Shown piece by piece: positions 3,310 to 53,995 of a stretch of 64,000 bases of DNA (within the stretch, counting starts at the first letter, position 1; every line of letters begins with the position of its first letter). The notes under the pieces were generated by a model, which made no database searches, was not told where the DNA came from, and saw only the letters and a program-made list of their open reading frames with translations. The translations under genes were made by a program, and so were the position numbers. The stretch comes from Mesostigma viride (Eukaryota; Streptophyta; Mesostigmatophyceae; Mesostigmatales; Mesostigmataceae), in contig RPFO01000579.1 in the NCBI GenBank assembly GCA_009746045.1, positions 559,660 to 623,659 of the forward strand, written 5' to 3'.

Positions 3310-9351
<6,042 letters not shown>

Positions 9352-10645: not shown

Positions 10646-13600
10646 GTAAGAAAACGCTTTCTTTTATCCCCCCCTCCCCCCCCCCCCCCCCACCCCACCA
10701 ATCCAGATTAGGGGATCTACGAAGGCTCTATTCCTGTCTGGGTATAAGTGCTTTGTATGTTGGATGCAGTCCGCGGATAGGGTACGATTTTTTGGTAGGC
10801 ATCTGACTCTCTTGGTAAGAAGATTAGAGCAGCGAGCAGTGAAAAAAAAGCAGTGAGCTTCTTCCTTTCCTTTTGGTACGTAGAGGGGGCTTTGTGAGGC
10901 TGCTATGCAGAGAAGGGTAGTGTAGTCTGACAACTTTGTAGCATGACGCTTCCGTGCTATGCAGTCGATTGCGCTATAGAAACCGGGTCGACGCTATTGA
11001 GTGATATCAATTAGGCAGATCTTGCTTTGAGCTGTATCTCTCGGTCGTTCTTGGGGTGCTGGCAGGGTCTTTGCGGCAGGCTCTACAATTACTGATGTTA
11101 TGCTGGTTACAGGGGCAAGTAGTCATCGAATTGTACAGATTTGCAGATAAGGGGGTTGGTGACAGAGGAAAGTAGACATGGCCGTTTTGCCGTCCTCAGC
11201 ATGCCTCCACCCCTTGTTTCCAGTTGCGTCTCCAGTATTCCCTGTGTGCATGGCGGGGGCCCTTGCGCTGTAATCGTGGCGTGCCGGTAACCACTGTCGC
11301 ACGAGGTGTTTTTGGGCGTTCTATCACGGGGGCGTCGCTGTGGTGGCATGCCGGTACCCACTGGGTTGTCCTGGGATGCGCTTGTTTGGGCATGGCAGTG
11401 CTGGGTGGATTATGTTTCATTAAACAATCCATGAGTGGTCAGTGACATGCATGTCTGGTGCATGGCTGGTGAATGAGTCTGTCCGTGCAGATGATGGCTA
11501 GTGGCGCAGGTGGCGGCGTTGGCTTAGCTTGGCGAGGACTTGGTTTCCTTGCTTATGATTAATGAAAGTCTGCTACTGCATCATGCGAGTATAAAGCCCT
11601 GCTTATGATAACCATGGTTGTTCATCATAGGATGGCTCTGTGGATATACCACTATAATAGTAGTATATGAACAATAACCAAGTATCATAGTAGTATATGA
11701 ACAATAACCAAGTATCATAGTAGTATATGAACAATAACCAAGTATCATAGTAGTATATGAACAATAACCAAGTATCATAGTAGTATATGAACAATAACCA
11801 AGTATCATAGTAGTATATGAACAATAACCAAGTATCATAGTAGTATATGAACAATAACCAAGTATCATAGTAGTATATGAACAATAACCAAGGTTCTTGG
11901 GCTTCTGTGGCTGTGGTGGCCTCCTTGGCGGTGACGGCTTGTGTGGGCCGTTGGTCGCGTTGTGCTGTTGTGCATGGCATTCTTGCGGCCTGGTGCCGTG
12001 GCTTTGTGTGGCTTGGGTGGCGTGGGGTTGTGGGGGCATTGGGGGCGTTGTTGTTGTTGTTGGTGGTGGAGGTGGCGGTGAAATTGGTGGCGTTGGTGGC
12101 GGTGTTGCCGGCGTTGGTGGCGGTGTTGACGGTGCTGATGGCGGCGTGGCGTGCGCCGGCAGGTATTTCAAGCTGGACCGCACGCGCGCGGCCGAGATGT
12201 TCTATTTCTTCTTTGAGAGCCGCGGCGACAAGGACAGGGACCCCCTGGTCCTCTGGATGACAGGCGGGCCAGGGTGCAGCAGCGAGCTGGCGGTGTACAT
12301 GGAGAACGGTCCCTGGGTGATCAACGAGGACCTGACCCTCAACCTCACTCAGTATGGGTGGGACACGGCCGCCAACATGATCTTCGTGGACCAGCCCATT
12401 AACACGGGTATGTATGCTTAGCCTGCTTGTTGCTACATTCAGCTCGACGCCCTTGTGATGTTTGTGATATTCGTGGGCCAGCCGATCAACACGGGTGGGT
12501 AGTCATAAGTTGATACATTGGTCAGGCATACTCCCAGCTATTTTCTTGTCGGCCAGATTTGTCTATGATGTTTTACTGGCTAGCCGATCAACACCGGTCC
12601 GTAATAGGACTGGCAAGGGGTCCGCAAAAACGAGAGTTTGGAGTCCAGCTGATCAACACGGGTGAGAGTAAGAGGGGGGGGGGGGGGGGGGGGGGGGGGG
12701 CGGGACGTCCTTTTTCCAGCGAACCGTGCGACTTGGTTTGTGATGTTTGCCTTGTCATTCTCTCCATGCCTGTCCCTACCCCCTCTACCCCCCAGGCTTC
12801 TCCTACTCGGATGACCCACGCGACCTGGTCCACAACGAGAAGGGCGTGGCCGACGACATGTGGGACTTCTTGCAGGAGTTTCTGGCCGCGCACCCGTCGC
12901 TGGCGGACCGCCCCTTCTTCGTGACGGGCGAGTCGTACGCGGGGCACTATGGTGGGTGGATGATTGTTGATGGCTAAATATGGGAGGTGTGTAGGCATTG
13001 AGGCATGGGGTTTGAAGCATGGAGTGGGGGATTCCGGCGGATGAGTTGTTTATTAGTGGTTAGTTTATTAGTGGGGCATTCCGGTGGATGAGTTGTTTAT
13101 TAGTGGTTAGTTTATTAGTGGGGCATTCCGGTGGATGAGTTGTCTATTAGTGGTTAGTTTATTAGTGGGGCATTCCGGTGGATGAGTTGTTTATGAGTGG
13201 TTAGTTTATTAGTGGGGCATTCCGGTGGATGAGTTGTTTATTAGTGGTTAGTTTATTAGTGGGGCATTCCGGTGGATGAGTTGTTTATTAGTGGTTAGTT
13301 TATTAGTGGGGCATTCCGGTGGATGAGTTGTTTATGAGTGGTTAGTTTATTAGTGGGGCATTCCGGTGGATGAGTTGTTTATTAGTGGTTGGTTCATTAG
13401 TGGGGCATTCCGGTGGATGAGTTGTTTATTGGTGGGGCATTCCGGTGGATGAGTTGTTTATTAGTGGTTACTTACTACAACGGTTATTAGTGGCTAATTA
13501 CTACTACGGAAGATGTGAATGGGGGCTTGCGGGTGGATCTTTCTGTGTCATGACCGAGTTGTACGTGGACCATCGTGGTGGGCCCGATCATCTATTCTAT

Positions 13601-16600
13601 TCTAACAAAGGCATCCGGTGAAGGCTTTTGGCGGGTACGCGGGGCAGTGTGGTGGGTGGTTCATGGCCACATCTCGGCGCTGTGAAAGGAGTTAATCGCC
13701 ATTTGAGGCATCGGGTTGGGATGAGGGGCATGGTGGTGGGTGGAAATTTAGTCCGGGGACGCTTTGTTTTGGGATGTTTAAGCTACGCTATCAAATGGTT
13801 ATACTTGGGCCACTGCAGTGAGTAGGTTATCGGTGAATGATTTGATCTCGGTTGACCTTCTCGGCTCCTTTCCTGCCCGACGGCCAAATGCGTGCCCGCG
13901 GTTTCCGACCTCTTTGTTGCGGTATTCTGAGATGGTTGTAAATCTTGTCTTTTTTAAATTCGATCAGCAAGTGATTTTATCTCACCCTCCCCGTTCCTCC
14001 CATTCACCCTATTTGCAGTGCCCGCGGTGTCCTACCGCATCATGAAGGGCAATGAGAAGCTCGACGAAGCCGCCGCCGCCGCCGCCGCCGCCAAGGCTGC
14101 CGCGTCGGGTGACGCGGACGTGGTTGTGGATGCTAGTGCTGTCGAGGGTGTGCGGGAGGACGACGGCCACATCCGCTGGAAGAAGATCAACCTGCAGGGT
14201 CTGGCCATTGGCAACGGTCTGACCGACCCCGCCATCCAGGCATGTAACAAGATGCCCATTGTGCATTGTACAGTATACTTGCAGTACACAGTGCAGTCAA
14301 GTAGACCACTCCTGTTTGGTCATTTTCAACGGTCTGACCGACTCCGCCATCCCGGCATATGGTTGCGTATGGTTGTGCCAGTAATAAAGAATTGTGTAGT
14401 ACTTTTCAGGAATGCATTTATCATCTAGTAATAGGGTCGAGCCCTCGGGAGTTGCCTGACGGATCCTGCCCTCATGAATATCCCTCTTTCACGCGCTTAT
14501 ACTGACAGACACTCCTCCCTCACGTGCTTATACAGACAGTAACTCACGCCTTAAGTTGGGTTGACCCCTCGAAACCCTCGAACCCATTTTTAGGCGTGAA
14601 TGACATACGCTAAACATACCGTATGACCCCCACGCCGACTTGTTGTACAACAGCAAAGGGGTCCACAAACCAGCCCTTGCTCCGACCCTTGCTCCCTAAC
14701 AAAAAAAAAAATCTTCCTCGTCCTCCCCACCCCCCCTTCTTCCCGGCCAGCCCACAGTACGGCGCCCGTGCTGACTTCTCGAATGACGACAAGCTGACTG
14801 CTCAGGCTCCTTAGGTTTCTGCTTAGGTTTCTCTGCTGATTGTTCCGCATGTTTCCCTAATTGTTCCGCATGGATACCTAATTGTTCCGCATGTTTCCCT
14901 AATTGTTCCGCATGTTTCCCTAATTGTTCCGCATGTTTCCCTAATTGTTCTGCATGGATACCTAATTGTTCCGCATGTTTCCCTAACTCTTGTTTGTTTC
15001 TCCCTCTGGCCTGCAGTCTGGTGCATACGCCGGCTTATCCTACGAGTACAAGCTAGTGAACGAGGCCACCCTGTCTCTTTCCCAACCAAGATATCATTTA
15101 GATATGTATCATTTAGTTGTCCTTATCCCCAACCAAGATATTCTTATTCGTTATCCCCTCTCCACTCCCCTGTCCCCATAGTTGTACGCGCATTATGGCG
15201 CGTGCGGCGACCTCTCCCATCATGAGAAAAAGCTGATCGACAAGGCCACATTTACTCCACTTTTCTAACCCCGAGAAATCTCTCCCCCCCCCCCCATGTA
15301 TCCACAGTACGGCGCCTATGCGGACTCCTCCTACAAGAACAAAGTCATCGACAAGGGGACCCTTGCTCTGCTTTTCTAACCATGAAATTCTTTGTTTTCT
15401 TTGTCATCTCCCCCCCCCCACACACACCCTGCCCTTTCTCCCCTACACACAGTATGGCGCCTACGCGGACTTCTCCTACGAGAACAAGCTCATCGACAAG
15501 GCCACCTACGACATGATCTCCCAGCTCTACCCCGCCTGCAATGCGTCCATCCAGCAGTGCTACTCGGGCACCGGGGGCCTCAAGTCCCGCATCGCCTGCC
15601 TGTCCGCGCTCGGCCGCTGCGAGGGCATCGTCGACGGCATCCTGATGGCCGCGGGGAACATCAACGTGTACGACATCCGCGAGCAGTGCAACGTCAAGCC
15701 GCTCTGTTACAACATGACGCTCATGACCAAGTATTTGAACGCGCCGGAGACGCGGGAGCTGCTGGGCGTGGGGCACCGTGTTTGGAAGAGCTGCAGCAAG
15801 TGAGTGGCGGGGAAATGCCATTTTTTAAAAAATGGTATAAATGGTATCGTAATGTATGTATGTACGCTTGTATGACTGGCTTGTTCATGGAGAGTCTTCT
15901 CCTTTGTGTGTGGAAAAGTCGCAGCAAGTGAATGGAGGGGATGCCGTTTTTTCTTTGATGTTATGAATTGTTTGAATAAATTGCATAAGATCTGCCGCAA
16001 GTGAGTGGTGGTGAAATGGCGGCCTTTCCCTTGTGTAAAACATCTTTTTTAAATGTGAAAATAGCTTGTTTCAAAATAGTTTGTTTTATTGGGTGCCTTT
16101 TTCCTTGTGTTGGGACGAGCCGCAGTCCGTGAGTTGAAGAATTGTTTACTGTTTCTTATCTCGGTATCTCATGCCGCACGGGTATAATGGTGTATGTTGG
16201 TCTGGAGAGCTGCAGCAAGTGAGTGGTGGACTCTTTCAGGGGAGTTTAGCCAGTGTTTTTTTTAAGGTTTTCGTTACTAGTGGCGCTAGGCCACTTGTGG
16301 CGTTCCGAACTATGAAAACTACAGTTTACTCGGCCAATGTGTGGCTTTAAGCCAATTAAAATTGGGCTTGGCACGGCCACGTGTGGCGGGCTGGCTTTTT
16401 GGTGCAGCAAATGACCCTGCCGGCAGCGGGGTCAGCGCGGCGCGGCGCCGTACTGGCTGTACACAAGGCAGGCGAGCGTCTCCGTCTCAGGCATCGGCGC
16501 CGGGCGTACAGTACTTGGTAAATTAACAACAACGATTACAACTGTTGTGCCGAAAGTCGAAACACAATCATTACCGTAGTCAATGCAGTACAAAGTGATC

Positions 16601-19600
16601 TTGACCACTACGGTAGTCAATGCAGTACAGTATGGCTGGCGAGTGACTTGATAACTGAGGCGCCAGCCGCCAGCCGCCAGGCCGCCAGCCAGCTGAAGCC
16701 TGAAAAGTGAAAATGCACACAAGCTGCAGTCTGCACAGTGCACTCTGGTCTCTGGCAGCGGGCCACTTGCCACTTGGCACTTGGCCGGGCTCTACGTACA
16801 TGCACTCACTATGCAGTCAGTGAGTCAGTCAGTCACAGTAGTACTCATTGTAGTAGTCTACTACTAGGGAGGCTTGTGGCGGAACGCCGGCCGGAAGTTC
16901 GGCTGACACTGCCAATTGTGGCGTAACCTGTACTAGAGTGAACTTCAGGCACGGCCACCCTGTGGCGAAACGAAACTACAAAGTAGAACAGCACGGCCAA
17001 ATTGTGGCTTCTTGGGAGCCCTGTCAAAGTGGGTGGCACCGCCACATTTTGCCAAAAAAAGTGCCACACCGCCACATTTGGCGGCATATCGCCACTAAAA
17101 AAAACACTGAGTTTAGCTCCCTGGGCAGTTTCTCGCTTATTCTCTGCCATGCACTGGCCTATCTTCTTGTCACTTGCTCCCTGGGTGCTTGCGGTACTGT
17201 TGGCAGTTGCTCAGTACGTGAGGGACTCGATTAACTGATTCGGAACTGGGGATGGATACTCATTAATAAAAAGATAAGGGCTAAGGTTATAGATAAATAA
17301 ATGGATAATCGCGTAGGTCCGTGCGTAGTACTCCTGCGCACTTAGGTCTAGTGGTGAGTCATCTTCTATAGATTCAGCAATATCGGATATATTGGCACCC
17401 CTCTCCGGTAAAGAGGTTTTTCGCAGTTGGGCTGTCTCGAAACGTTAAGTGAGATGCCTTCGGATCGGGAGACTCACACAGCCGCGAAATCATGCCAAAG
17501 GTCCTATGTTCGATTCCTTGCTGGTAGCTTCTAGGCTTTCTTACTTTCTGTGTTCCGCGGAATCTCAGATTTGGGCAGCTAGCGTTTTCACATTTGTTGC
17601 TTTCTGAGGACGAAATAGATAATGGCTGAGGGTAGAGATAAATAAATAGATAATAATGGCTGAGGGTAAAGATAAATAAATTGATAATGGCTAAGGGTAT
17701 AGATAAATAAATAGATAATGGCGAAGGGTATAGATAAATAAATAGATAATGGCTGAGGGTAGTTCATGATGGGTCTTATCCATGATGGTATTGTTGTTCG
17801 ATGATGGTATTATTATTCGATGATGTGTCTTATCGATGATGATGGGTCCACTTATCGTCCTGGGAACAGGGCATGTGAAGGAAGAGGAAGAGCTGGCTTG
17901 CTTGTTGGATAGCCATAGCCTCCGCGGGACTTGATGATGGTCTGCGCTGCCTGATGGTACGCGGCATCTGAAGGAAGGGCTTGATCGTTGATCGTAACTT
18001 TTTATTGGCCCCACTTAGTACTTTTAGGCAAATAACATCCCTCGTGTGCGAGTGCATATGCCTCTGCCTCTGTGGCCCTGTCTTTGTGTCCTTTCTGCGG
18101 TGGGTTTTTGGTGGTCTGGTTGGCCCCCCCCCCACTGTGTCACGCCTTTCCATGGCCCACGCTGGTACTGCTCTACACCCCGGCGGCGGCTCCTTCACGC
18201 GTGTCCCTTGCGGACGCAGCCTTGTGCATTCTGCGGTACGTGCCAAAGCCTTCACAAGGGACATATGCAAGGGTTCATGCGCAAGGAGAGGGTCAGTGTG
18301 TGTGTGTGTGTGTGCGTGTGTGCGTGTTTGTGTTTGTGTGCGTGTGTGCGTGTGTGCGTGTGTGCGTGCGTGTGCGTGTGTGCATGTGTGCGTGTGTGTG
18401 CGCGTGTGTTTCTTGGGCTGCTCTCGGTATGAGTCTCCGTGGGATCTCTTCACTCTCAACTCCTGCCACTTCGTCCATTCTTCCATCCCGCTGAGATGAA
18501 AACAACATTGGGTCGCATGCACTTTTGCATATTTTCCAAAGCGGGGGCTTGGCCATGTATGCATGCACAGGCTATGGCCTCAGATGAGCGGTCTGGGTCT
18601 AGTTCATAGTAGATACAAAGTTGGTACTATTATATACTAGAAGATACAAAGTAGGTACTAATGTATTCTAGTAGATACAAAGTAGGTACTAGTATATACT
18701 AGTAGATACTAGTAGATACTACTAGTAGTAGATCTGGCGGACTGGAGCTCCGTTAAATCTTCAACTCTGGTCTTTTTTCTTAGTCCTTTGACTCAAACGC
18801 TTGTCACCCCCCCCTCATCCTAAAGATGTCATCCCCTTCAACCCTCAGACGGCACCCGACTGGGTGTGTCCGGCTTAAATCTGGGTTTTAACCGCTTACC
18901 CTGTGCGCCCTCCCACCCCTTGCCCCCCTCCACACCCCACCGCCCCCCACCGGCCCACAACACCGGCACCAGATGATGGCGGACTGGATGTCCGACTGGG
19001 AGCCGGTCATCCCCCCCATGCTGGAGGCCGGGCTGCGCGTGATGATCTACGCGGGCGAGGCTGACTTCATCTGCAACTGGCTGGGCAACCACCGCTGGGT
19101 GGAGGCGATGCCTTGGTCGGGCCAGAAGGGCTTCAACGACGCCCCGATGGTGCCCTGGAATGGGGGGGATGCCGGCAAGGCCGAGGGGGGGTACTACAAG
19201 GCATTCGAGAACCTGTCGTTCGTCAAGGTTGCACAGGCCGGCCACATGGTACGCTGCGGGGGGGCAGCCTGATGACCTGTATGCCTTGCTTTGTGGGGTT
19301 GTGGCCTCTTGGTCGGCACGTGCCTGGTGATGTGTGTCCCTCTTTTGGTCGTGTTTGTCAAGGTCGCAGAGGCCGGCCACTTGGTACGCTGCGGTGGAAC
19401 AGCCTGGCGATGCGTATGCCGTGTATCCGTTGCTTTCAAATAGCTTTACATAATCGATTGATCAATTGCTTTTGTCCAGGAGAAGCAGGCAGGGCACATG
19501 GTCAGCTGCGGTCTCTCTATTTGCACATGGGTCATGGTCAGATTGTTTCCCTGTGTATATGCTTCCCGTGTTGCTTTCAAGGTCGCCCAGGCAGGCCACA

Positions 19601-27633: not shown

Positions 27634-28009
27634 GATATGTAATTAATTATTTATATCAAGGAGACAAGTTAGTTATAGATCAGTCCCAACCAATATGTTC
27701 TCACCTGGCATGCCCCAGGCCGCGCGCGGCAGGGCCGCCACCCGTGGACTTTTCGTGATAGGCTCGGCATGGACATGTGCTACACTAGACGTGACGGGCT
27801 TACACCCGGGCAGCCTCCTGGTTTGTCTGTAATATGGAGGCAGATGGTGCGCAACGAGCCACGAGCCACGAGCCACGAGGTAGCCATGGCTGACGGCGGA
27901 GCTCATAACTTTCACGTTTGAGCCCCAAATTCAGCTGTGAATATCACTATCGCTTCGTCTTTCTAAGACGCACATGCTGATATAATTTTCCGAACCTAAA
28001 ACGCAATAT

Positions 28010-29355
28010 ATGACGAGCAAACGTCCTTTGACGCAACGCAGTTTGGCGGATGCGCTCGCCCATGAAAATGCGGCAGCTGCGGCTGCAGCTTCGCCATCAG
28101 GTCCGGCAGGCAGCGATGACACTAGTCGTGCACTGGTGGTCACCCAGCAACCTCCCGGGCTTAATGCCTCGCCATCGGCATCGCCTGACCCGAAACGCAC
28201 CCGCCCAGCCGACAAAACAGGATGGTCCCGCCCCTCGGAACCGCGCTTTCGGCCCCACCCTTTCAAGGTCGATGATCACGACTGGAACAACATGTCTCCT
28301 TACGATGCTATGGACTGCATCTTCTTCGGGGACTACGCCTCGCTTTACGACCTGTGCCTCCATCTCTTCGACCAAGGTCGCCTCCTCGGCAGCAACGGCA
28401 GCCGCTGGCAAACCCACGGTGCCCTGCTTGGCTGCCCCCGCCCCCAGCTCCAGCACACCATCCTCAACTCCCTTCTCCAGCGCTCTGACGACGCGATCTG
28501 GGCTCCATCCATCTCCGCCTCCACCCTCCGTTCCATCCTCACGGAAGCCTTTCAGCAGCACGTGACCCCCCTTGCTGCTGACGTCGCAGCAATGGGTGGC
28601 ACGCTGGCTGCTGAACTTCCTCACATTTCCGCCGCTGCCGCCTCCACCTCCACTGCCATTTCCGCCTCCACTGCCGACATCAAAGCCCAGCTCCTCGACC
28701 TCGACCAACGCCTTCAAGCCACCGCCAACGCCCTTGAGAGCTTGCATGACACCGCCGGCCTCACCGCCCAGGCGGTGAAGGACATCGCCGCCCAGCCGGC
28801 GTCTGCTGGCCCGGCCGGCGATGCTCCCTCCACCTGGGCGGACTTGCTTAAGCAGCACACCACCTCCACCACCTCCACCATCTCGGCACAACTCAAGCAA
28901 CAAGCCCTCGACCTTCGCGAGGAAACCGACATCGCCCGGCGCAGCCACAATGTCATCGTCAAGCACTTCGACCAGCCGGCAGGTGAGACCTCCACGAGCC
29001 TTCTTGAGGCATTTAAGCGCGACATTCTTGCCCCCATGCTACTCACTGGTGAGCTGGACATGTCGGCTGTCCGCCTCCCCCGCGCGCGGGGAAGGCTGGC
29101 CCGGCACCCGTGCTCCTCACCTTTAAGTACATGGCGGACAAGCTGTCGTTCCTTAAATGCCGCAAGAAGCTCTCGAGGACTCGCTTCACGCTGGACGACG
29201 ACTTGACCCTGGCCCAGCAACAGCGGCGACGCGAGCTATGGCCGACCTACCTTCAGCTCCGGCACAGCGCAGGGGGGAAGCCGGTATACTGGAGGGGGCG
29301 GTCATCCACGTTGACCACAAGCCCTGGCAGCCCCCTCCTGCCACCCCAGACTAGG
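28010..29355 (+). pseudogene. LINE ORF1-like protein, copy 2 (one frameshift)
   Basis: The frame runs from ATG 28010 (MTSKRPLTQRSLADALAH) and keeps DCIFFGDYASLYDLCLHL and the helical block intact. It shifts at about 29088, where one G is missing from a G run relative to copy 1. The last part (FTLDDDLTLAQQQRRRELWP) continues in the next frame. It is the best-preserved of the three copies. Confidence 0.75.
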
Positions 29356-30099: not shown

Positions 30100-30184
30100 C
30101 CATTCCATCCCATTTTTCCCCTCCCACTGAGGACTTATGCTCACATGACGCAGTCACATGTCTACTAATTAATTAATTAATTAA

Positions 30185-43507: not shown

Positions 43508-44023
43508 ATGTACGGGGGATACGATGACCACGATAGGGAGGAAAATGACCAGTTTTATATGCGGCCGGATGCCGTTGTCCCGGATGTGGTGAAGACATTC
43601 GTGGTCTATTTCTACAGGCACATACGGGAAAAGAATGTGGCCGAGATTCACCAGATGTACGAGGGCAGTTTCGCGAAGCTCACGGAGCGCTATTTCAAGG
43701 CGTCTCCCTGGCCACTAGTGGATGCTATTGCCCCTCTGGTTGACAATGATCACGTCTTCTGCCTGCTGTACAAGGAGATGTACTTCCGCCATATCTACGC
43801 CAAGGTGTCCCCGTCGCTGGCCCAGCGCTGCGAGTCGTGGGATAACTACTGCTCGTTGTTCCAGGTCATCCTCCACGGAAATGTCAACATGCAGCTGCCA
43901 AACCAGTGGCTCTTTGACATGATCGACGAGTTCATCTACCAATTTCAATCCTTCAGCCAGTATAGGTCGAAGCTGAAGACGAAGACGGATGAGGAACTAG
44001 CCCTGCTCAAGAACTGCTCGCAG
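43508..44023 (+). CDS. EIF3L: eIF3L exon 1
   Basis: 172 codons from MYGGYDDHDREENDQFYM to ALLKNCSQ, donor GTGGGT, phase 0. It contains the conserved FIYQFQSFSQY block. Confidence 0.96.
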
Positions 44024-47000
44024 GTGGGTTTTCCAGGAACGGTCTTTGTCAAACTGCCGGCATACGCCGACCGTGCTTGTCTCCCGTTTACAAGTTACTG
44101 GGCGTTCAGTTTCACGCCTGCCAACTTTGGTTGCGAGCATGTCAGGTCAACCCGGTTGTGTTTGTGTGCAATCTGGGCCAAGCCGGTTTTTAGTGTAGCT
44201 TGTTGCATGCGGTTATTGCTCTTGTCAATTGGAAGTTAACGCCGCTCATCCTCTTTTCCCGGTATATGGTTTATTACTTGAATACAAGCTCAGGGCCACC
44301 ACGTGGCCAGAGTGGGCTGGTCACCTAGTTTCTAATAGTGAGTCAAAGCTTAGTTGCATCTCCTCTTTTTTCCGCCTTATCCATATCAAAGCTTGTTTCT
44401 ACTTGTTGCGCGGCGGCCATTAGTTGCGTGGCCTTCAGTAAGTTACTTTTGCTTAGGTTCATCTTTGCTTATAGTAATGTTTTTTGTAGCTAACAGCGAC
44501 ACGGCTTCCCCTTGTGTCCCCTTGTCGCGGCGGCTGTGGATGACGAACAAAAGATTAGGGACATCTGTACCGCCCCCCTAGGGGGGCCGGGTTGATGAGC
44601 AACATCTGATGGGAATCTCTCTGACACAAGCCGCCTGTACACAAGCATGGAATAGGCTCACATGTCCCTTGAATGAGTTTTAGCTTTCTTTTTCTCCCTC
44701 TTGCCGCCTGCACCAAAACACGGTGCGGAGTACCTCCTCATGTACCTCTCTTTTCTCCCTTTCTCGTCGTTGTCTTGTCTGTCCCCTGTACCACAGTTAC
44801 TACCTTGTCCTAATTGTACTCCTTTTTTGTGTGCTCCCCCCCGCCCCTATTTACTTTGTTTGTAATGTACTAGAATTTCCATGTAATGTACTATAGCTGC
44901 ACAAGGCACCCAATCTTTATCAATTGTAGTGTTGGAAGCATGTCTGTCCATCCTCCCAGTCTTCCTAGCCCTGCCCTGCCCTGCCTTCTTTTGCCTGCCG
45001 CCCTCACCCTATGGTTCCGCACCTATTGCAACCCTTGGTTTCCGTACTAACTGCCCCAATCCCCATCTTCTCGCCGCGCAGGTATCCCAAACACTACCCA
45101 CCACATCACATATGTTTCCCCTGGAGGGCGGTTCTTGCATCGGCTCATGTGGCATAGCCTTTCCCACATGAGACCCGCTTTCAGAGCAGCATTGATAGGC
45201 TGCTGTGCATGCTCCACACAGGGTACTGGTAGTATCCTAACTGCGCTCCAAGTAGTATCCTAACTGCGCTCCAAGTAGTGTCCTAACTGCGCTCCAAGTA
45301 GTGTCCTAACTGCGCTCCAAGTAGTATCCTAACTGCGCTGCAAGTATTATCCTAACTGCGCTGCAAGTAGTATCCTAACTGCGCTCCAAGTAGTATCCTA
45401 ACTGCGCTCCAAGTAGTATCCTAACTGCGCTCCAAGTAGTATCCTAACTGCGCTCCAAGTAGTATCCTAACTGCGCTCCAAGTAGTATCCTAACTGCGCT
45501 CCAAGTAGTATCCTAACTGCGCTCCAAGTAGTGTCCTAGCTGCGCTGCCATCCATCAATTGAGTCAAGTTATCAATTGAGTTGCATTTCTGCACGCCTTC
45601 CCTTGTTTTTTTTCCCCATGCACTCCACCCACCCACCTGGTCTGGGCCTCTAACATGGTTGCGCACTTTCTGTGGTATTGTGATTTTTGTGTGCCCCACG
45701 TCGTTTGTGTGCATGATGGTCGTTCACGTACTTGCTTGCCACGCACCCCTCGCACCCACCACCCGCCCACCCACCAGGTCTGGAACGTCCTCGGGGTGCT
45801 CAACTTCCTGCAGGTACGGCTGCGGTTGCTGGCACAAGTGGCATGGTCCCCCAAGAGGGGGTTCGCTTTCAGGGCTTGAAAATATCTTAAGAGAAAGTAC
45901 TGGTTGAGTGGAACGTGGTAGGGTTTGGCAGGGTGCTTTATGTGGGGATCGTTGAACAGGGTATTGGCTTGGGGGCATTTGAACTGTACCTTTGAGAGGT
46001 CTCTGCTAGAATACCCGGTTCTTTAATTTTAGTATCTTTACTCGGCTCGTAACAGGTTTGGTGCTCTCTGTGGGTACCCTTTAGTACTAGTTGCGGGTAC
46101 ACGTGGACGGTTTGCGGGTGGATGTTTTAACGCGTGGGGCTTGGGGGGGGGGGGGGGGAAGAGCTCGTTTCTTTGACTCACTTGGTCCTGTCATTCCTGC
46201 GATCGCTGCGGAATGCATAGCAAGTTCGAATCCGTGTTGGAGCTACTTGAACTTTCGCGGTTTTCGCGTCCTGGCGCTCGGCAGCTTACAATCTGTTGCT
46301 TGCCTCAACAATATAAGAGCAATAGCGATTGCAAGGTACAAGAGCAATAGCAAGGTGTTAGGGTCTGGCCATGCCGCAAGAGGTAGGAGCAAGGGCAACC
46401 CTTAGGTTCATGTTTTTCTGGGATCTTTGCTATATGTTATCTATAATGTATAGTATATAGTATATCTGGTTGTCTCCTTGATAGTATATAGTATAGTATG
46501 GTATAGTATAGTATGGTTTAGTATAGTACAGTACAGTACAGTACAGTACAGTACAGTACAGTACAGTACAGTACAGTACAGTACAGTACAGTACAGTACA
46601 GTACAGTACAGTACAGTACAGTACAGTACAGTACAGTACAGTACAGTACAGTACAGTACAGTACAGTACAGTACAGTACAGAACAGTACAGTACAGTACA
46701 GTACAGTACAGTACCGTACAGTATAGTGTAGTGTAGTATAGTATAGTATAGTATAGTGTAGTATAGTGTAGTGTAGTGTATAGTCATCGATCATGTGTAT
46801 ATTTGCTTTTGTCTCCTTTTGCGTGATGTTTTGGCTCATCCTTCCTCCCCTTCGCTACTTATATCACCCGCGTGACAGGCGCTGGTGGACAAGGCGGACA
46901 TCGTGCTCATCCTCAACAAGGAGCGCGCGAGCGGGGACACCTGGTTCACCGACAACGACGGATACGACCTGTCGGGCGGCAGCAACGTGCTGCGCGTGCT

Positions 47001-50000
47001 GGGGTGGGTTTGCCACCGGTGGCTGTGGTTGTTTACACTATGCTACATAGTGGGGTATAGTATACCATAGTGGTGTGTAGTGACCGGGCGGTAGCAACGT
47101 GCTGCGAATGCTGGGGTAGGTTTCTTTTGTATCGAAGCTCTCTGCTAGTAAATACGCTGGGGGGGGTCAGTCACATCAGCTTGTTATTGGACGGCTGGGG
47201 TAGGTTTCTTTTGTATCGAAGCTCTCTGCTAGTAAATACGCTGGGGGGGTCAGTCACATCAGCTTGTTATTGGACGGCTGGGGTAGGTTTCTTTTGTATC
47301 GAAGCTCTCTGCTAGTAAATACGCTGGGGGGGGTCAGTCACATCAGCTTGTTATTGATCGGCTTCTTATTTACCAAAGCTATTTACTAGTAAAGACGCTG
47401 GGGGCTCAGTCACATCGACTTCTTACTTATTGGTTTCTTATTTATCGAAACTCTCTTATAGGTAATGCTTATTCCGACTTGTATTTATGTTTACCAAATT
47501 ATCGTCATTTATGTCGTAATGACTTCGTATACACCAAGAAGTGTTTTCGCCCTCGTTGGCCTTAGGACCTCTTGCTTCCCTCCACCTGCTGCGTGCCGGA
47601 TGCCTGCTGCCACCACCACTGTCTGTGCCTCCCTCCCTCTGTGGCCTGTGCCGTGAACAGTGCCTCCTGGGCAAAATATCCCTTCCCCACCCCTTGCTTC
47701 TCTCTGCCCGGTGGTGCGCCTGCTACCACCCGTCACGCCTCAGCCCTTGCTCATCATCTCTGCCCCCATGACTCCGTGCCTGTGCCATATGCATGTCGCC
47801 AGTGACATACCCCTCGTCACCTCACGTGTTCGATCGCTCTCTATCAGCTCCTGCCTCGCTGTGCCAAACCATTTCGACTCGTGCCAGATTAAATAAAAAT
47901 CAAATGCAGATGAAATTAAGTTATACTTGTGCCAAAGGCTGCCACCGCCACCCGCTACGCGTCCCTCATCAGCTGCAGCTGCCTGCTGGGCGAGTACCCC
48001 TCAACACTCCTTTGCTTCCCCTTGCCCCCTGTTGCGTGCCATATGCCTGTTGCCAGCTACGCCTCCCTCATCGGCCTGTGCCGCGTGCACTGCCTGCTGG
48101 GCGACTACCACGGCGCGCTGCGGGCGATCGAGCCCGTCGACGTCTTCCACCGCGGCCTCTACCAGAAGGTGCCGCAGGGCCACATCGCCGCCCTGTACTA
48201 CGCTGGATTCTCCTACATGATGCTGTGCCGGTGGGTGGGACAGCGACTAGGTTTACAACAGAACGCGGCCAGTGTGTGTGATGCCGGTGAGTGGTGTAAT
48301 CGGTGCACGCATGTCGCGCAACACCCAGTTTTTGTTTCGTTTCCTTTTCGATTGTTTCCTTGTCTCATTCAGTATCAGCCGGTGCCTTTCCTTTCCTTTT
48401 AGATTGTTTCCTTGTCTCATTCAGTATCAGCCGGTGCCTTTCCTTTCCTTTTCGATTGTTTCCTTGTCTCATTCAGTATCAGCCGGTGCCTTGCCTTTCC
48501 TTTTCGATTGTTTCCTTGTCTCATTCAGTATCAGCCGGTGCCTTGCCTTTCCTTTTCGATTGTTTCCTTGTCTCATTCAGTATCAGCCGGTGCCCTTTGG
48601 AGGGCATATATAATATCCTACAATATGCTAATGATTATAACAGCCGGTGCCCTTTGGGGGGCATATATAATATCCTACAATTTGCTAATGATTATATCAG
48701 CCGGTGCCCTTTGGGGGGCATCTCCCTTTTGTCCCGCTAGCAGGAAACCGCCAGCCTCCTAACCGGCGCTCTCACGAATGTTTCGTTCATCTCTCTGTCC
48801 CCACATTCTCTTTATGTACCTGCTGGTCCCCCTGGTTATGAGGAGGCGGCCACCCTCTCCAACAGCGTTCTTACCCATGTCCCCCCCCTTCCTATCTGTA
48901 TCTACTGCCTCTGTCTATTTACTCAGTTATGAGGAGGCCACCCTGTTCAGCAGTGCGCTGGTCTTACATCTCTAACACCCCCTGTTCTCTTTGATTCAAC
49001 CAGTATTCCCTCCTTTCCTCCCCCCACCCCCCAGTTACGAGGTGGCGGCCACCCTGTTTAAGAGCAGGCAGGCTCGTGTACATCTCTAACACCCCTTGTT
49101 TCTTTCTCCCTCCTCCTATCTGCATCTACTGCCCTCATTATAAATTCCTTGTCTATCTTATTCAGTTACGAGGAGGCGGCCACCCTGTTCAACAGCGCGC
49201 TGGTCTACATCTCGCGCGCCAAGCACTACCACACGCGCATGGCGGCCTACGACCAGATCCTGAAGAAGAACGAGCAGATCTTCGCGCTGCTCGCCATGTG
49301 CATCGCGCTCTGCCCCGCGTGGCTGCTGCTCGAGGAGGCCGTGTCGTCGGTCCTGCGCGACAAGTATGGCGAAAAGGTGAGTAGGACAAGTGCGGCGAAA
49401 AGGGGAATAGGCCAAGTCGGGGTAAAATTGGCTCTTTTTTAGCAAATTTAGCAAATTAGCGGAAGGCGGGGGGCGAGATTAATTAAGAGGTACCTTGAAA
49501 TTAAATAAGACGCATACCTCTATCGAGATATATGTTTGGAGGCGAGTTTCTATTGGCGTTAATTTGTACTATTGTACGACAACTGTCAAGGGTGACGGCA
49601 TGTACTGAAATCGCGGATACTTTCTAGATCGATTGCGCATTCGACGGTTAAAAGGCAGAGCTGCGGTTGAAAGTACTGTACGTGGGGGGGACGGTGTTAC
49701 AACGGGGGGGGGACGCATTTATGGGGGGGGGGGACGATGTTACAACGGGGGGACGGTGTTACAACGGGGGGACGGTGTTACAACGGGGGGGCGAGATTAA
49801 TTAAGAGGTAAGTTACCTTGAAATTAAATAAGACGCACGCCTCTATCGAGATATATGTATGGAGGCGAGTTTCTATTGGCGTAAATTTGTAGTATTGTAC
49901 GAAAACTGTCAAGGGTGACGGAAAGTACTGAAATCGCGGAAGTGTCGCGGGGACGTTTCTACTTTCTAGATCGATTGCGCATTCGACGGTTAAGAGGCAG

Positions 50001-52258
50001 AGGTGCGGTCGACTGGCAGTACTGTACGACGGTGTTGGACGGAATTTCCGGTTAGCGATGCGGTATAAAGCTTTGCATGTCACGTTGTCGGATCTTAGCC
50101 CTTGCGTCGCGCTATGCTGTGGCGAACTTATTCTCCGCCGTCAGATTGCACCGTCGATGAGCGTCGATGCTCGTCGATGAACCCAACGCAAGCCATGTGA
50201 CGGAAAGAAGTAAAAATTGGTGCGGCGGCCTCTAAGCCTGAGTTTGGTAAAGTACGGAACTTGTAGCCCGGCGACTCCGCGTCGAGCAGTCCGCAGGTAG
50301 TCCGCCGGCGTTAATTTGTTAATTTTGTTAATTTGTAAACTGGGGACAACCTAGTCAGTAAAAAAGTATGGTGAATAGGGGAATAGGACAAGTTTGTGAA
50401 TAGGGGAATCAGACAAGTTTGTGAATAGGGAAATAGGACAAGTATGGTGAATTGGGGAATAGGAAAAGCACAGCGAGTAGGGGAATAGGATAAGTACGTT
50501 GAAAAGGGGAATAGGACAAGTGCGTCGAAAAGGGGAATAGGACCAAAGTACGGGGTAGAGCGATTAGGAGGGCTGGCACGATTGCGGTCTTGACAAACTT
50601 CAAGCTTGTTGGGTATATTCTAATCCTTATGTAGGCAGGGAGAGAGGGTGGCTCAAGGGCGCGTAGGCAGGGAGAAAGCCTGGTTGAGTCACGTGTTACG
50701 TCGAACTGCCGCAGGTCTCTTGTCAGCCTTTTTTTCTTCCCCCTCCCCCTCCCGCATACACACCGCCCTTCTGTCTGAGGGGGGATGTCTGAGCACATTC
50801 CGCTCTCGCCTCGCCCCCCCGCAAAAAAAAGAAAGAGCCCTTCCCACCACATAGCTGTGCTCTAATTGAATTGCATCATGCCGTTTGCCCGTCCCTCTTT
50901 TCCCTCCCCCCCCCTCCCCGCCATTTTCCAGATGGCGCGCATGCAGCGCATGGAGGAGGTTGTCTTTGACGAGCTGTTTGCGTACGGCTGCCCCAAGTTC
51001 GTGTGCGCGGCGCCGCCCACCATCGAGGGGGGGCTCGGCGACCACCACCAGGTGAGGGGTGGCTGTGCGCCCTTTGCCGCGGGGTGGCTGTGCTGATGTG
51101 TGCTGTCTCTCGGCTGTCCGCCTTGACTCACCAGGAGGCCTCTGTGCGGCTGCCGCTCGTTTTGTTGGCTGCTGAAATCCTGCAGGCCGCAATCCACTTT
51201 GCCCCCCACCATCCCTTCACACATTTACCATTCATGGCTGTCCCCTTGGGAGCAGGAGGCATCGAAGCTGCAGCTGAGGCCGTTTGCCATGCAGCTAAGT
51301 GAGGTGCTTACCATGCTGCTCATGCAGGCCGCTTACCATGCAGCTAAGTGAGGCGCTCTCCATGTGGCTAACTGGAGTGCTTGCCCCCACGCGTTCGTTC
51401 ATGCCCTTTCGCCTGCCTGGGTTCCTCAGGAGGCGTTTGTGCTGCAGCTGAAGCTGTTCCTGGCCGAGATCCGCCAGCAGCAGCTGCTCCCGGCGATCCG
51501 CTCGTACCTCAAGCTCTACTCAACCATCACGATCTCCAAGCTGGCCGACCTGATGGAGGTGGAGGAGAGCGTGCTGCGGTGGGTGGCTGGTAGTTGGCGT
51601 ATTGGGTCACTATAACATGGTCTATAGAATGAATGGGGTCACTAAAACATGGTCTACAGAATGAATGGGGTCACCATAACATGGTCTATAGAATGAATGG
51701 AAGAGGGACATGGAGGTGGAGGAGAGCGTGCTGCAGTGGGTGCGGTTGTTAGCTGTAGGGATACCGACAAGATATCACTGGCAAGATACGGCCTATAATA
51801 GCCCGTCACTGAAAGAGCAGATTTAAGTGTCACCGGGAATAGTAGCCTCAGCTCAGACAGTCCTCAGCTCAGACAAGCTGTGTCTTGTACTCCATTGTCT
51901 TCTATTCCATTCTTTTTAGGGTCTAGGGTTTAGGGTTTAGGCTGTCTTCCATTCCATTCTTTTTAGGGTTTAGGGTTAGGGTTTGGGGTGTCTTGTATTC
52001 CTTTCCCTATCCCTGCTCGCCCGTACGGTGCGAGATGGCCCTCCCACATGTGCCAGGGTATCCTTCTGACCAGGCCATTTCATGGGCCCCCCCTTTTTCC
52101 CCCTTGTCTTCCCTTCCTCTCCCACACCACACCACACCCACACCACACACTATACTATAGTGACCACACCACACCACACACACACACACAATTCTCCACA
52201 CGAATTCTTGCATCATAACCGCTGTGCCTCCTTGCTATGCTCTCATGCGGATCCTTAG

Positions 52259-52355
<97 letters not shown>

Positions 52356-53995
52356 GTTCCCTTCCCTCTCCTTCTTTTGCCCCCCCCTGGCTTTCCTTTC
52401 TTTGGCCTCATCCTCCTTGTGCCCACTGGCAGCATGCCGCCACTGTGCCTCAAGGCCATACTCTGACCCTCAATCTGTCCCCTCCGCCCCGCTCGTTGCG
52501 CTTTCCGCCCACATGTTTCTTAAACTTGCAGCACGCAACTGCTGTGCCTCAAGGCCAAGGCGATCCATTCGTACGCGCAGGGAGGGGGGGCACAGCGCGG
52601 CACCCACCACGATGTGGATTTCTTCATCGATGGGGTAAGGCTCCCCCCTTGTTCGTCACATACCACTACTGGTGTTATGATCATCGTCACTCTACTGCAC
52701 TGCACTCACCACGATGTGAATTTCTTCACCGACGGAGTATGTCCCCCCCTCTTCTCTGACAGATCCTAGCACTGGAGTGTTTTACAAATACTTGTGTACT
52801 AGTGTATTAAGAATAGTGCCTTGAATATACTAGTGTATCCCCCCCCCTTCTTAGACAGATACTAGGGACAGTGTTTTACAAATAATAGTGTGTTTTAGTG
52901 ATTAGAAAATGTCAGTGTTTTACAAATACTAGTGTATTAATAATATTAGTACATTGCATATACTAGTGTATTAAGAGTACCAGTGTAGTGAAAGTAGTGT
53001 ATTGTTGTTACTGCTCTGCGCGGCACCCCTCTCGACGCAGGATTTGTCCATCAACAGGGTATCCTGGTATAATATACAACTGTGACGATTTAATTGATTA
53101 ATGTATTTTGTTGTCAGAATGTCCATTCTTAGCATCCTGTTCACGCTCTAGTGCTGTTCTTAGCACTTTGTGTACGTAATAGTGCTGTTGTCATACAGTG
53201 CGGGTTGGCCACGATTCTTCTGACTCTATTTTGCTATGCCCACACTTGGGCACTTCAGGACGTGGGTTACGTATTTTGTGGGGGCAAGTTTGTAACCTGA
53301 CTCGACCCGTTAATCTGTGGTGGGGTGGGGGTGGGGGTGGGGGTGGGGGTGGGGTGGGGGTGGGGGTGGGGTGGGGGTGGGGTGGGTGGGGGTGGGGGTG
53401 GGGGTGGGGGTGGGGGTGGGGGTGGGGGTGGGGGTGGGGGTGGGGGTGGGGGTGGGGGTGGGGGTGGGGGTGAGGGTGAGGGTGGAGGTGGGGGTGTGCG
53501 TTTGTGTTTTCCTGACTTGACCCGCTGGTATCTCCTTCCTTGCTCCGCACCTTATTTCTGGCAGGACATGGTGCACGTGGCCGACACGACCGTCCAGCGC
53601 AACTTCGGTGACTTCTTCGGCCACCACATCCGCAAGGTAGGATGGCATGAGCAGGGCAAGGTAGTATGACGTGAACAGGGCACGTTTTTTGTTTCATGCC
53701 TTGTCACCGCGTGCGTTGGGTGGGACCTCCGGCATGGCATGTGCCACTGCATGCACAAGGTTGGACGGCATGAGCTGGGGTTGATTGCCACCGCATGCTG
53801 CAAGTAGGCAGAGACAGACAACCACAGTTTTGCACGTCAATCGGTTGGTTGACCCCCACTACCACCACACACACACACCACCCTCCTTCCCCCCCCCCCC
53901 CCCCGCCCCGGCCCCACCCAACACCCCAGCTGTCGGACATCACGCGCGAGTTGGAGGCGCTGCCCAACCCCATCTTTGTCGCGCCCGTCATCTAA
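43508..53995 (+). CDS. EIF3L: Eukaryotic translation initiation factor 3 subunit L, ten exons
   Basis: Exons: 43508-44023, 45778-45813, 46879-47003, 48057-48230, 49166-49376, 50932-51051, 51430-51578, 52532-52634, 53565-53636, 53930-53995. All introns are GT-AG and phases agree, giving about 523 residues against roughly 560 in animals. Recognisable blocks in order: LYKEMYFRHIYAKVSPSLAQ, NQWLFDMIDEFIYQFQSFSQ, VWNVLGVLNFLQALVDKADI, VHCLLGDYHGALRAIE, RVRPE-type segment YQKVPQGHIAALYYAGFSYM, LYSTITISKLADLMEVEE (PCI-domain winged helix) and DMVHVADTTVQRNFGDFFGH. eIF3L binds eIF3k at the periphery of eIF3 and supports 40S initiation. The start ATG at 43508 matches the conserved N-terminus. A TGTAA hexamer-like signal, the usual green-algal polyadenylation signal, lies at 54271-54275. 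Confidence 0.96.
45228..45545. repeat. 23-bp minisatellite in eIF3L intron 1
   Basis: About 14 units of AGTAGTATCCTAACTGCGCT followed by CCA or GCA. The rest of intron 1 (44024-45227) shows nothing I can name. Confidence 0.95.
45622..45662 (+). repeat. Acceptor-side echo of eIF3L exon 2
   Basis: CCACCCACCCACCTGGTCTG followed by GGCC resembles the live acceptor CGCCCACCCACCAGGTCTGG at 45764-45783. Here the AG has become TG, so this copy is inactive. Confidence 0.75.
45778..45813 (+). CDS. EIF3L: eIF3L exon 2 (36-bp microexon)
   Basis: Encodes exactly VWNVLGVLNFLQ, phase 0 at both ends, acceptor CCACCAG and donor GTACGG. The residues correspond to the conserved W-V-VLN-L segment after exon 1. 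Confidence 0.93.
46440..46785. repeat. (GTACA)n pentanucleotide satellite in eIF3L intron 2
   Basis: About 40 pure GTACA units (46526-46720) flanked by diverged GTATA units. The unit is nearly self-complementary, so long frames appear on both strands as artefacts. Confidence 0.95.
46879..47003 (+). CDS. EIF3L: eIF3L exon 3
   Basis: ALVDKADIVLILNKERASGD ... SGGSNVLRVLG, phase 2 at a GTGGGT donor. Confidence 0.94.
47078..47340 (+). repeat. Donor-side echo of eIF3L exon 3 expanded into a tandem array
   Basis: GACCGGGCGGTAGCAACGTG ... GCTGGGGTAGG at 47081-47120 copies the end of exon 3 plus donor (46969-47007). From there a unit of about 84 bp, each ending GGCTGGGGTAGGTTTC, repeats about three times to 47340. 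Confidence 0.85.
47575..48000 (+). repeat. Acceptor-side echoes of eIF3L exon 4
   Basis: The copy at 47949-47996 reads GCTACGCGTCCCTCATCAGC ... CTGCCTGCTGGGCGAGTACC, close to exon 4 (48057-48113). An older copy at about 47590-47672 keeps TGGCCTGTGCCGTGAACAGT and GCCTCCTGGGC. Upstream CTTGC/CCTGTTGCC tracts are repeated with them. Confidence 0.82.
48057..48230 (+). CDS. EIF3L: eIF3L exon 4
   Basis: The acceptor TTGCCAG is followed by YASLIGLCRVHCLLGDYHG, ending FSYMMLC plus two bases of Arg, donor GTGGGT. Confidence 0.95.
48335..48725. repeat. Two minisatellites in eIF3L intron 4 (52-bp and about 56-bp units)
   Basis: The first array (48335-48590) has units ending TTCCTTGTCTCATTCAGTAT, which resemble the exon 5 acceptor region (CCTTGTCTATCTTATTCAG). 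The second (48590-48725) has GCCGGTGCCCTTTGGGGGGC and ATATATAATATCC. The first may descend from an acceptor echo. Confidence 0.85.
48836..49085 (+). repeat. Three acceptor-side echoes of eIF3L exon 5
   Basis: Copies start at about 48836, 48930 and 49036: TATGAGGAGGCGGCCACCCT, TATGAGGAGGCCACCCTGTT and TACGAGGTGGCGGCCACCCT. Two continue to the CTGGTCTACATCTC equivalent and then TAA. The live exon begins TTACGAGGAGGCGGCCACCC at 49166. Confidence 0.92.
49166..49376 (+). CDS. EIF3L: eIF3L exon 5
   Basis: The acceptor TTATTCAG is followed by YEEAATLFNSALVYISRAK, then KKNEQIFALLAMCIALCP, ending VLRDKYGEK at a GTGAGT donor. This junction has seeded a minisatellite downstream. Confidence 0.95.
49380..49425 (+). 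repeat. Immediate donor-side echo of eIF3L exon 5
   Basis: Directly after the live donor, GGACAAGTGCGGCGAAAAGG and GGCCAAGTCGGGGTAAAATT repeat GCGACAAGTATGGCGAAAAG from the exon end. This is an evident start of tandem duplication. Confidence 0.85.
49468..50030. repeat. Direct duplication of about 220 bp in eIF3L intron 5
   Basis: 49468-49690 and 49787-50030 share GCGAGATTAATTAAGAGGTA through CGCATTCGACGGTTA with small changes, separated by GGGGACGGTGTTACAACGGG repeats. Confidence 0.85.
50358..50560 (+). repeat. Minisatellite derived from the eIF3L exon 5 donor
   Basis: About nine units of roughly 23 bp, GGACAAGTATGGTGAATAGG followed by GGAATA, clearly related to the exon 5 end plus donor (GACAAGTATGGCGAAAAGGT at 49359-49378). 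The array lies almost 1 kb from its source. Confidence 0.9.
50932..51051 (+). CDS. EIF3L: eIF3L exon 6
   Basis: MARMQRMEEVVFDELFAYGC, then PKFVCAAPPTIEGG. 40 codons, phase 0. F-Y-CPKF is conserved in the family. Confidence 0.94.
51131..51290 (+). repeat. Two acceptor-side echoes of eIF3L exon 7
   Basis: ACCAGGAGGCCTCTGTGCGG at about 51131 and AGCAGGAGGCATCGAAGCTG at about 51254 resemble CTCAGGAGGCGTTTGTGCTG (51426-51445), each after a pyrimidine-rich stretch. Confidence 0.82.
51430..51578 (+). CDS. EIF3L: eIF3L exon 7 (start of PCI domain)
   Basis: EAFVLQLKLFLAEIRQQQLL, then IRSYLKLYSTITISKLADLM, ending EESVL plus CG, donor GTGGGT. Confidence 0.95.
51712..51750 (+). repeat. Donor-side echo of eIF3L exon 7
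   Basis: GGAGGTGGAGGAGAGCGTGC then TGCAGTGGGT copies 51555-51583 with one base changed at the donor (CGGTGGGT to CAGTGGGT). Three copies of an ACATGGTCTAYAGAATGAAT repeat lie between. Confidence 0.92.
51915..51990. repeat. Interstitial telomere-like repeats in eIF3L intron 7
   Basis: Two blocks of TTTAGGG/TTAGGG (TTTTTAGGGTCTAGGGTTTA and TTTTTAGGGTTTAGGGTTAG), separated by GCTGTCTTCCATTCCATTC. Plant and many algal telomeres use TTTAGGG. Blocks are too short to be functional ends. Confidence 0.85.
52264..52352. repeat. (CT)n microsatellite in eIF3L intron 7
   Basis: About 44 CT units. An acceptor-side echo of exon 8 with GCATGCCGCCACTGTGCCTC follows at about 52431-52465 (live: GCACGCAACTGCTGTGCCTC). 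Confidence 0.93.
52532..52634 (+). CDS. EIF3L: eIF3L exon 8
   Basis: RTQLLCLKAKAIHSYAQGGG ... HHDVDFFIDG, phase 0 at a GTAAGG donor. VDFYIDKDM-like context continues into exon 9. Confidence 0.92.
52697..53070 (+). repeat. Donor-side echoes of eIF3L exon 8
   Basis: CACGATGTGAATTTCTTCAC plus CGACGGAGTATG at 52710-52741 copies the exon 8 end (52608-52640). A weaker copy with CGACGCAGGATTTGTCCATC and AACAGGGTATC lies at 53033-53064. Repeats of TTTTACAAATACTAGTGTAT lie between. Confidence 0.82.
53320..53492. repeat. (GGGGGT)n G-rich array in eIF3L intron 8
   Basis: About 28 units of GGGGGT or GGGGT on the coding strand, with strong G-quadruplex potential in the pre-mRNA, 73 bp before exon 9. Confidence 0.95.
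53565..53636 (+). CDS. EIF3L: eIF3L exon 9
   Basis: DMVHVADTTVQRNFGDFFGH then HIRK, 24 codons, phase 0, donor GTAGGA. Highly conserved C-terminal motif. Confidence 0.95.
53640..53815 (+). repeat. Donor-side echoes of eIF3L exon 9
   Basis: GGCAAGGTAGTATGACGTGA at 53656 follows GCAAGGTAGGATGGCATGAG at the live junction. GCACAAGGTTGGACGGCATG (53754) and TGCAAGTAGG (53799) are older copies. Confidence 0.78.
53930..53995 (+). CDS. EIF3L: eIF3L exon 10 (last)
   Basis: The acceptor CACCCCAG is followed by LSDITRELEALPNPIFVAPV then Ile and TAA. Confidence 0.92.
   Translation: MSDITRELEALPNPIFVAPVI

Follow-up and report, generated by a model that had tools for sequence, protein, structure and literature searches.

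The locus

The window, by which we mean the whole 64-kb stretch of Mesostigma viride DNA analysed here, carries two intron-containing genes on the plus strand, an S10 carboxypeptidase and eIF3L, together with retrotransposon-related sequence:

10434..20536, plus strand: S10 carboxypeptidase gene, introns CP1-CP7; its translation from MFYFFF onwards is all 474 residues of P0241
10434-10645, 12163-12407, 12796-12951, 14019-14239, plus strand: carboxypeptidase exons 1-4
15453-15799, 18220-18235 (16-nt microexon), 18973-19248, 20339-20536, plus strand: carboxypeptidase exons 5-8
43508..53994, plus strand: eIF3L gene, introns EF1-EF9; PF10255 family by its homologs
43508-44023, 45778-45813, 46879-47003, 48057-48230, 49166-49376, plus strand: eIF3L exons 1-5
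50932-51051, 51430-51578, 52532-52634, 53565-53636, 53930-53994, plus strand: eIF3L exons 6-10
57850-60540, 61500-62940, 22930-24210, 27980-29350, plus strand: retrotransposon with an RVT_1 domain, and three related open reading frames recognised by eye

A protein search with the carboxypeptidase returned P0241 (Mesvir1 22386), with 85% of the query aligned at 99% identity; going by JGI labels, we take Mesvir1 to be Mesostigma viride. The reading frames of exons 5 and 6 were incompatible in the initial model, at a place where P0241 shows extra residues; these are supplied by the 16-nt microexon at 18220-18235 (plus strand), which the reading frame requires. With the microexon included, our model matches the deposited Mesvir1 protein exactly, and the deposited model splices at the outermost sites. 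As P0241 starts within exon 2, exon 1 and the first join belong to our own gene model alone. The splice sites of carboxypeptidase intron 4 (14240-15452, plus strand) are of the GC-AG type, and GC is also present at its first donor copy.

Homologs of eIF3L reach at best 61% identity among the 120 matches listed, such that none of those listed comes from this genome, and the eIF3L query had no match in viral contigs. All nine eIF3L joins agree with an alignment of nine hand-picked homologs, with no common indel at the joins; next to the sixth join a single homolog carries an additional residue, and most of the nine stop shortly past the ninth.

Pfam, run on 20 open reading frames, gave RVT_1 alone above cut-off, so the names GYF and sulfotransferase, used below for two minus-strand genes, are labels taken over from an earlier, sequence-only reading of the window. 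The reverse transcriptase shares 97% identity with another Mesvir1 protein across 64% of the query; a 24-base pattern from the retrotransposon had no match in viral or genome contigs. A stretch of 141 bp in carboxypeptidase intron 5 (17471-17611, plus strand) matches intergenic 29960-30100, inverted, at 95%, and is probably a mobile element. By eye, a long near-perfect inverted repeat lies at 590-1000; ARAGORN found no tRNA in the 64-kb window.

Exon-edge copies in the introns

The sequence-only reading had proposed that almost every intron of the carboxypeptidase and eIF3L genes holds diverged copies of the neighbouring exon edge and its splice site. Probing each intron with its own adjoining edges (8 intron nt and at most 60 exon nt per probe, with 300 dinucleotide shuffles as the null and p ≤ 0.01 as the cut-off), we found a significant direct copy for 17 of the 30 testable edges in the two genes, both microexon edges having been left out as too short. 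The copies are therefore a real observation, and they occur in a majority of the introns; the exact figure, 12 of 16, falls short of ‘almost every’. Under the corrected gene models 13 of the 30 edges have no detected copy; the CP6 acceptor narrowly fails (p 0.017), and the EF1 acceptor passes with a probe carrying 40 intron nt but fails with the 8-nt version (p 0.07).

The same probes in inverted orientation match their own intron at none of the 30 edges, and foreign pairings of edge and intron pass in 3 of 450 cases, those scoring below 80 being entered as misses without shuffling. Probes made of exon letters alone still give direct copies at 13 of 30 edges and inverted copies at none of 30; with these same probes, an edge set against the intron on the opposite side of its exon passes in 1 of 22 cases, and 0 of 23 interior exon windows have a copy. 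With 40 intron nt in the probe there are 40 copies, spread over 18 of 30 edges and 13 of 15 introns.

For 40-nt exon edges, the own-intron score is 1329 for donors, where permutations average 824 (z 9.3), and 1186 for acceptors, where they average 821 (z 7.1); none of 20,000 permutations equalled either score. It should be said that the permutation, anatomy, simulation and spacing tests predate the microexon: 15800-18972 was taken as one intron, giving 15 introns in all, and the present CP7 carried the name CP6 in that model. The proportion of exon windows with a local copy falls with distance from the junction, from 30/61 (0-20 nt) through 15/54 (20-40 nt) to 5/48 (40-60 nt), and is 0/111 for windows more than 60 nt from an internal junction.

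On the minus strand three of four tested edges pass (GYF donors 1 and 2 and the sulfotransferase acceptor), two of the passing introns having one end placed by hand. The earlier claim that copies extend to the introns of these genes thus stands for three edges and fails for GYF acceptor 2, which has no significant copy. The copies, all in the orientation of their gene, are as follows:

12465-12519, 12603-12663, plus strand: CP2 donor copies, by edge-versus-intron alignment
13525-13582, 13635-13684, plus strand: CP3 donor copies, by edge-versus-intron alignment
13865..13914, plus strand: CP3 acceptor copy, by edge-versus-intron alignment
14299-14360, 14433-14473, plus strand: CP4 donor copies, the second ending 3 nt before the junction
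14614-14668, 14722-14815, 14997-15070, 15155-15251, 15269-15361, plus strand: CP4 acceptor row of five copies
15906-15964, 15987-16020, 16188-16229, plus strand: CP5 donor copies, with copy sites at 15928, 16001 and 16219
19353-19423, 19469-19511, 19577-19608, plus strand: CP7 donor copies
19873-19932, 19983-20058, 20200-20258, plus strand: CP7 acceptor copies
47085..47123, plus strand: EF3 donor copy
47576-47674, 47764-47818, 47929-48000, plus strand: EF3 acceptor copies
48719-48772, 48835-48888, 48904-48972, 49032-49086, plus strand: EF4 acceptor copies
49359..49417, plus strand: 26-bp tandem array across the live EF5 donor (intron start 49377)
50362-50417, 50437-50488, 50489-50546, plus strand: EF5 donor-derived array, about 1 kb from the live donor
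51116-51191, 51229-51284, plus strand: EF6 acceptor copies, weak
51710..51764, plus strand: EF7 donor copy, exon side 25/26
52425..52458, plus strand: EF7 acceptor copy
52694-52777, 53013-53061, plus strand: EF8 donor copies, the first site in frame and open if used
53632..53682, plus strand: 24-bp tandem array across the live EF9 donor (intron start 53637)
53708..53779, plus strand: EF9 donor copy
38958..39159, minus strand: three GYF donor-edge copies (intron start 39404)
38311..38342, minus strand: GYF second-donor copy (intron start 38405; far end set by hand at 37300)
7090..7146, minus strand: sulfotransferase acceptor-edge copy (exon start 6840; far end of intron set by hand at 7510)

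Eleven spans had been named as examples by the sequence-only reading, and each contains at least one copy at p ≤ 0.01. The donor spans so confirmed are 12466-12668, 15906-16230, 19350-19620, 50358-50560, 51712-51750 and 38875-39160, in the last of which all three recovered copies lie at or after 38958 and none before it; the acceptor spans are 14756-15360, 19889-20250, 47949-47996, 48836-49085 and 51131-51290, the last being the weakest of the eleven (p 0.005 and 0.01). Rows of up to nine copies had also been reported, but the most we detect at any one edge is five.

The exon part of the sulfotransferase copy matches at 17 of 18 positions, the remainder being a CA repeat. On the plus strand, this acceptor and its copy (6843-7290) each precede a TG repeat with a GA repeat behind it, an arrangement that looks as though both microsatellites had been duplicated along with the exon edge.

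Anatomy and decay of the copies

Seen directly, the copies lie in the same orientation as the edge they resemble and in the intron adjoining it. With the 40-intron-nt probe, 39 of 40 alignments run across the junction and the remaining one ends 3 nt short; the copied exon part is limited to the last ~60 nt of the exon. Distances to the nearest copy have a median of 128 nt: 13 of 17 edges fall at 87-157 nt and the other four at 26, 174, 241 and 626 nt, a spacing narrower than expected of random lengths. Independently, Tandem Repeats Finder reports the 26-bp and 24-bp arrays across the live EF5 and EF9 donors (eIF3L exons 5 and 9). The second donor of the EF9 array, after 53660, is in frame and open. 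This 24-nt tandem copy (53637-53660, plus strand) would, if its donor were used, add eight in-frame residues.

Rows hold up to five copies. Along the CP4 acceptor row, exon-side identity moving inward is 85, 82, 78, 66 and 66%. Over the 12 multi-copy edges, pairwise comparison finds the nearer copy to be the better match 27 times and the poorer one 9 times (permutation p 0.007), which bears out the earlier remark that copies become less alike with distance as a tendency though not as a rule, the nearest copy being the best match at 7 of the 12.

Of 38 pairs of adjacent units, 9 share significant homology beyond the edge itself; 5 of these 9 are among the 18 pairs with the live unit as one member (the CP4, CP7 and EF4 acceptors and the CP5 and EF5 donors). 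This leaves 29 of 38 unit pairs overall, and 13 of 18 live-neighbour pairs, with no significant homology outside the edge. Alignments of whole units, edge included, reach 84% (CP4), 76% (CP7) and 75% (EF4) for acceptors, and 75% (CP5), 74% (EF8) and 66% (CP7) for donors, all with large gaps in the intron part; for the EF8 donor pair, homology outside the edge is below significance. At the EF4 acceptor, two copies share an exon end point (+48) and both continue into the same stretch of intron. Arrays within units, along with the large gaps, may point to a high turnover of intron sequence.

Copies differ from the live exon at 95/502, 99/503 and 156/503 sites in codon positions 1, 2 and 3 (19, 20 and 31%), with 107 transitions and 121 transversions. 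Their decay looks neutral: this is the pattern expected when a neutral copy is compared with an exon changing mainly at third positions. A GT, GC or AG is kept in 27 of 39 copies with a readable site, slightly above the ~59% predicted by a per-base identity of 77%, and hence there is no sign of decoy removal. Frame breaks and stops had been noted in the copies, and amongst the 27 retained sites just one (EF8, at 52737, 102 nt) would extend the exon in frame and free of stops, three being stop-free at all. The narrow spacing had raised the idea that near decoys are avoided, which we rejected, as the EF9 copy only 24 nt away retains its GT.

Local duplication is not confined to exon edges. Outside arrays and edge copies, 70 of 715 intron windows have local repeats unrelated to exons, and eIF3L intron 5 (49447-50040, plus strand) contains a direct duplication with a spacing of ~320-340 bp and no relation to exon edges. 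Windows with local direct copies make up 27, 42 and 44% of the introns of carboxypeptidase, eIF3L and GYF, 0, 3, 14 and 15% of four intergenic stretches, and 11% of the 3-5.7 kb stretch that contains the sulfotransferase introns; these figures are to be read against a reversed-sequence control that simple repeats lift to 16% in the introns of GYF and to 11% in one of the intergenic stretches. A rough count by eye gives 17 edge families and ~25 wholly intronic ones (~16 arrays and ~9 diverged families).

Origin of the copies

Synthesising these observations, we propose that the copies probably arose by recurrent tandem duplication across exon-intron junctions, after which the outermost site would stay in use and the inner copy decay neutrally. 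The duplication step, the selection step and the order of events in time are what we infer here. Small local tandem duplications would recur in this genome, and one that happened to span an exon-intron junction would create two splice sites. Selection would then retain the outermost, because use of any other site would alter the mRNA; the earlier statement that the live site is always the outermost copy is thus what one would predict if selection preserves the mRNA. The inner copy would become intron sequence, lengthening the intron, and would be free to decay. Later junction-spanning duplications would displace the older copies farther from the junction, giving rise to rows and to a gradient of similarity. 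Duplications within exons would be purged, and those wholly within introns would survive with both of their copies decaying.

Within these genes, tandem junction duplication as an explanation of the direct orientation, the junction content, the arrays over live donors and the gradient is well supported. The earlier suggestion that introns lengthen by local duplication at junctions followed by decay of the inner copy is accordingly upheld for carboxypeptidase and eIF3L, and that interpretation as a whole is partly supported. A further step would be a ratchet operating genome-wide, in which edge and splice core are copied preferentially in steps of ~90-160 bp to lengthen M. viride introns and leave a dated series of decayed sites; this we put forward as a tentative possibility, and would rather bet against it.

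Some of the data fit junction duplication poorly, among them the 13 of 30 edges that have no copy, the narrow spacing of the nearest copies and the unit pairs that lack homology outside the edge. Identity on the intron side of the copies is 0.61 over 30 nt and 0.49 over the 15 nt beyond the splice core, whereas simulated neutral junction duplications, passed through a like detection step, give 0.72-0.76 and 0.70-0.74. The simulated copies are younger on average (exon side 0.80-0.86 versus 0.75-0.79 observed), so that part of this difference is age and the true gap is smaller; saying this, it persists in the closest identity class (0.64 observed, 0.79-0.80 simulated). Letting the live intron evolve three times faster brings the simulated values to 0.65 (30 nt) and 0.61 (15 nt), and copying only 6-15 nt of intron brings them to 0.58 and 0.55.

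These values lend weight to a rival account, in which a copying process specific to edges (e.g. break repair or template switching near junctions) inserts the edge and splice core ~100 nt into the intron, the spacer between live edge and copy never having been homologous. The observed intron-side identities are approached in simulation only when the copy takes along 6-15 nt of intron, the nearest-copy spacing is narrow (median 128 nt), and rough arithmetic for uniform placement of ~100-bp units leads one to expect ~6 edge families where 17 are seen, a roughly three-fold excess. Longer visibility may yield about a two-fold excess of edges: edge copies stay visible for longer because the exon edge is a frozen reference, whilst paired intron copies both decay. 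Part of the focus on edges is a matter of visibility, and general local duplication together with longer visibility may explain much of it. Templated insertion should often give inverted copies, of which we see none at 30 edges; nearly all alignments (39 of 40) cross the junction, which a dispersed copy need not do; homology does extend into the intron part at 5 of 18 live units; and tandem arrays sit across live donors. We therefore regard edge-specific copying as unlikely, albeit the most serious competitor to tandem junction duplication.

Selection might instead maintain the copies, for use as alternative exon ends or splice sites or for a role in regulating splicing. The retention of splice dinucleotides in 27 of 39 copies could be taken this way, as could the greater likeness of exon sides than intron sides, which holds even when copy is compared with copy (0.68 versus 0.49), and the EF8 and EF9 copies that are in frame and open if used. 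Yet divergence is 19% at first and 20% at second codon positions, a single usable site in 27 is in frame and stop-free, with three stop-free, and dinucleotide retention about equals the prediction from per-base identity, all of which makes maintenance by selection improbable. Coding constraint in particular finds no support in the codon-position divergence of 19/20/31% or in that same lone open site.

Were the copies instead relics of intron gain, in which exon sequence undergoes tandem genomic duplication, the raw mutation would be the same as in tandem junction duplication, namely a local duplication carrying a splice site. Intron gain of this type was reportedly described by Hellsten in 2011 and by Gao and Lynch in 2009. 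The geometry it predicts, an intron start resembling the start of the next exon or an intron end resembling the end of the previous one, is found in 1 of 30 tests (EF1, p 0.01), and none of the 16 introns has alike 5′ and 3′ splice regions. For these introns this origin is largely refuted and we give it very little credence, although old gains could have decayed beyond recognition.

Chance similarity between skewed, repeat-rich sequences need hardly be entertained: the introns are indeed repeat-rich, but the permutation z values of 9.3 and 7.1 and the inverted (0/30), foreign (3/450) and interior-exon (0/23) controls speak against it, and the comparison of own with foreign edges that the sequence-only reading had itself proposed refutes it, own edges in the two genes scoring clearly higher.

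Two further candidates were set aside. Introners were rejected as no sequence is common to any two of the 16 introns (0 hits at E 1e-4), and tandem duplication of whole exons was rejected on the interior windows (0/23) and those beyond 60 nt (0/111).

Implications

In the two genes the stretches that reach from a live splice site to the most distant copy detected for it add up to 6,708 of 17,348 intron bases (39%); this sets a ceiling on what the copies contribute, with the weak EF1 acceptor counted in. Each row of copies would be a record of past local duplications, the exon serving as a reference that selection keeps constant. The rows also place natural decoy splice sites, of known distance and strength, beside live ones, and would open to testing both the cause of junction duplication and the means by which the spliceosome consistently selects the outermost site. 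If the genome-wide ratchet were true, it would constitute a main route of intron lengthening, hitherto without a name, and might include a copying step targeted to junctions.

Comparison with known systems

Full-text literature searches, whose reach excluded most subscription papers, returned no description of this pattern. Closest in kind are the short tandem duplications of PMC8355091, which in the portions available are tied to DNA break repair or slippage, with Vaughn and Bennetzen 2014 cited there for natural insertions in rice. Like the copies described here they are direct, local, small and head-to-tail; rows at exon-intron junctions and the lengthening of introns are absent from the sections of that account we draw on.

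Intron gain by tandem genomic duplication, as outlined in the accessible passages of PMC3443670 and PMC2891723, doubles exon sequence with AGGT and leaves a new intron between the copies. The likeness lies in a local duplication bearing splice signals; here, by contrast, an existing intron grows and the geometry of gain is missing. Introners, as the extracts of PMC9860276 present them, are likewise recurrent sequences within introns, but there one element is found in many genes, whereas here the copies stem from the local exon. The direct repeats at intron-exon borders in PMC11782384 are, from its available text, 4-30 bp long, lie between the 5′ and 3′ borders and are interpreted as insertion scars, unlike the present copies of one edge, which sit inside the intron on that edge's own side. 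Introns go unmentioned in the part of the text of PMC7027972 at hand.

For M. viride itself, the genome paper (PMC6947507) gives, in its accessible part, a mean intron of 1,142 bp and attributes this length to repetitive elements, which make up 30.1% of intron space. Intronic minisatellites offer the last parallel, being built of head-to-tail units, as are the two arrays that straddle live donors here; they differ in that the unit in our introns holds a live, conserved exon edge, that most spacings are ~65-190 bp and that most of the copies are strongly diverged.
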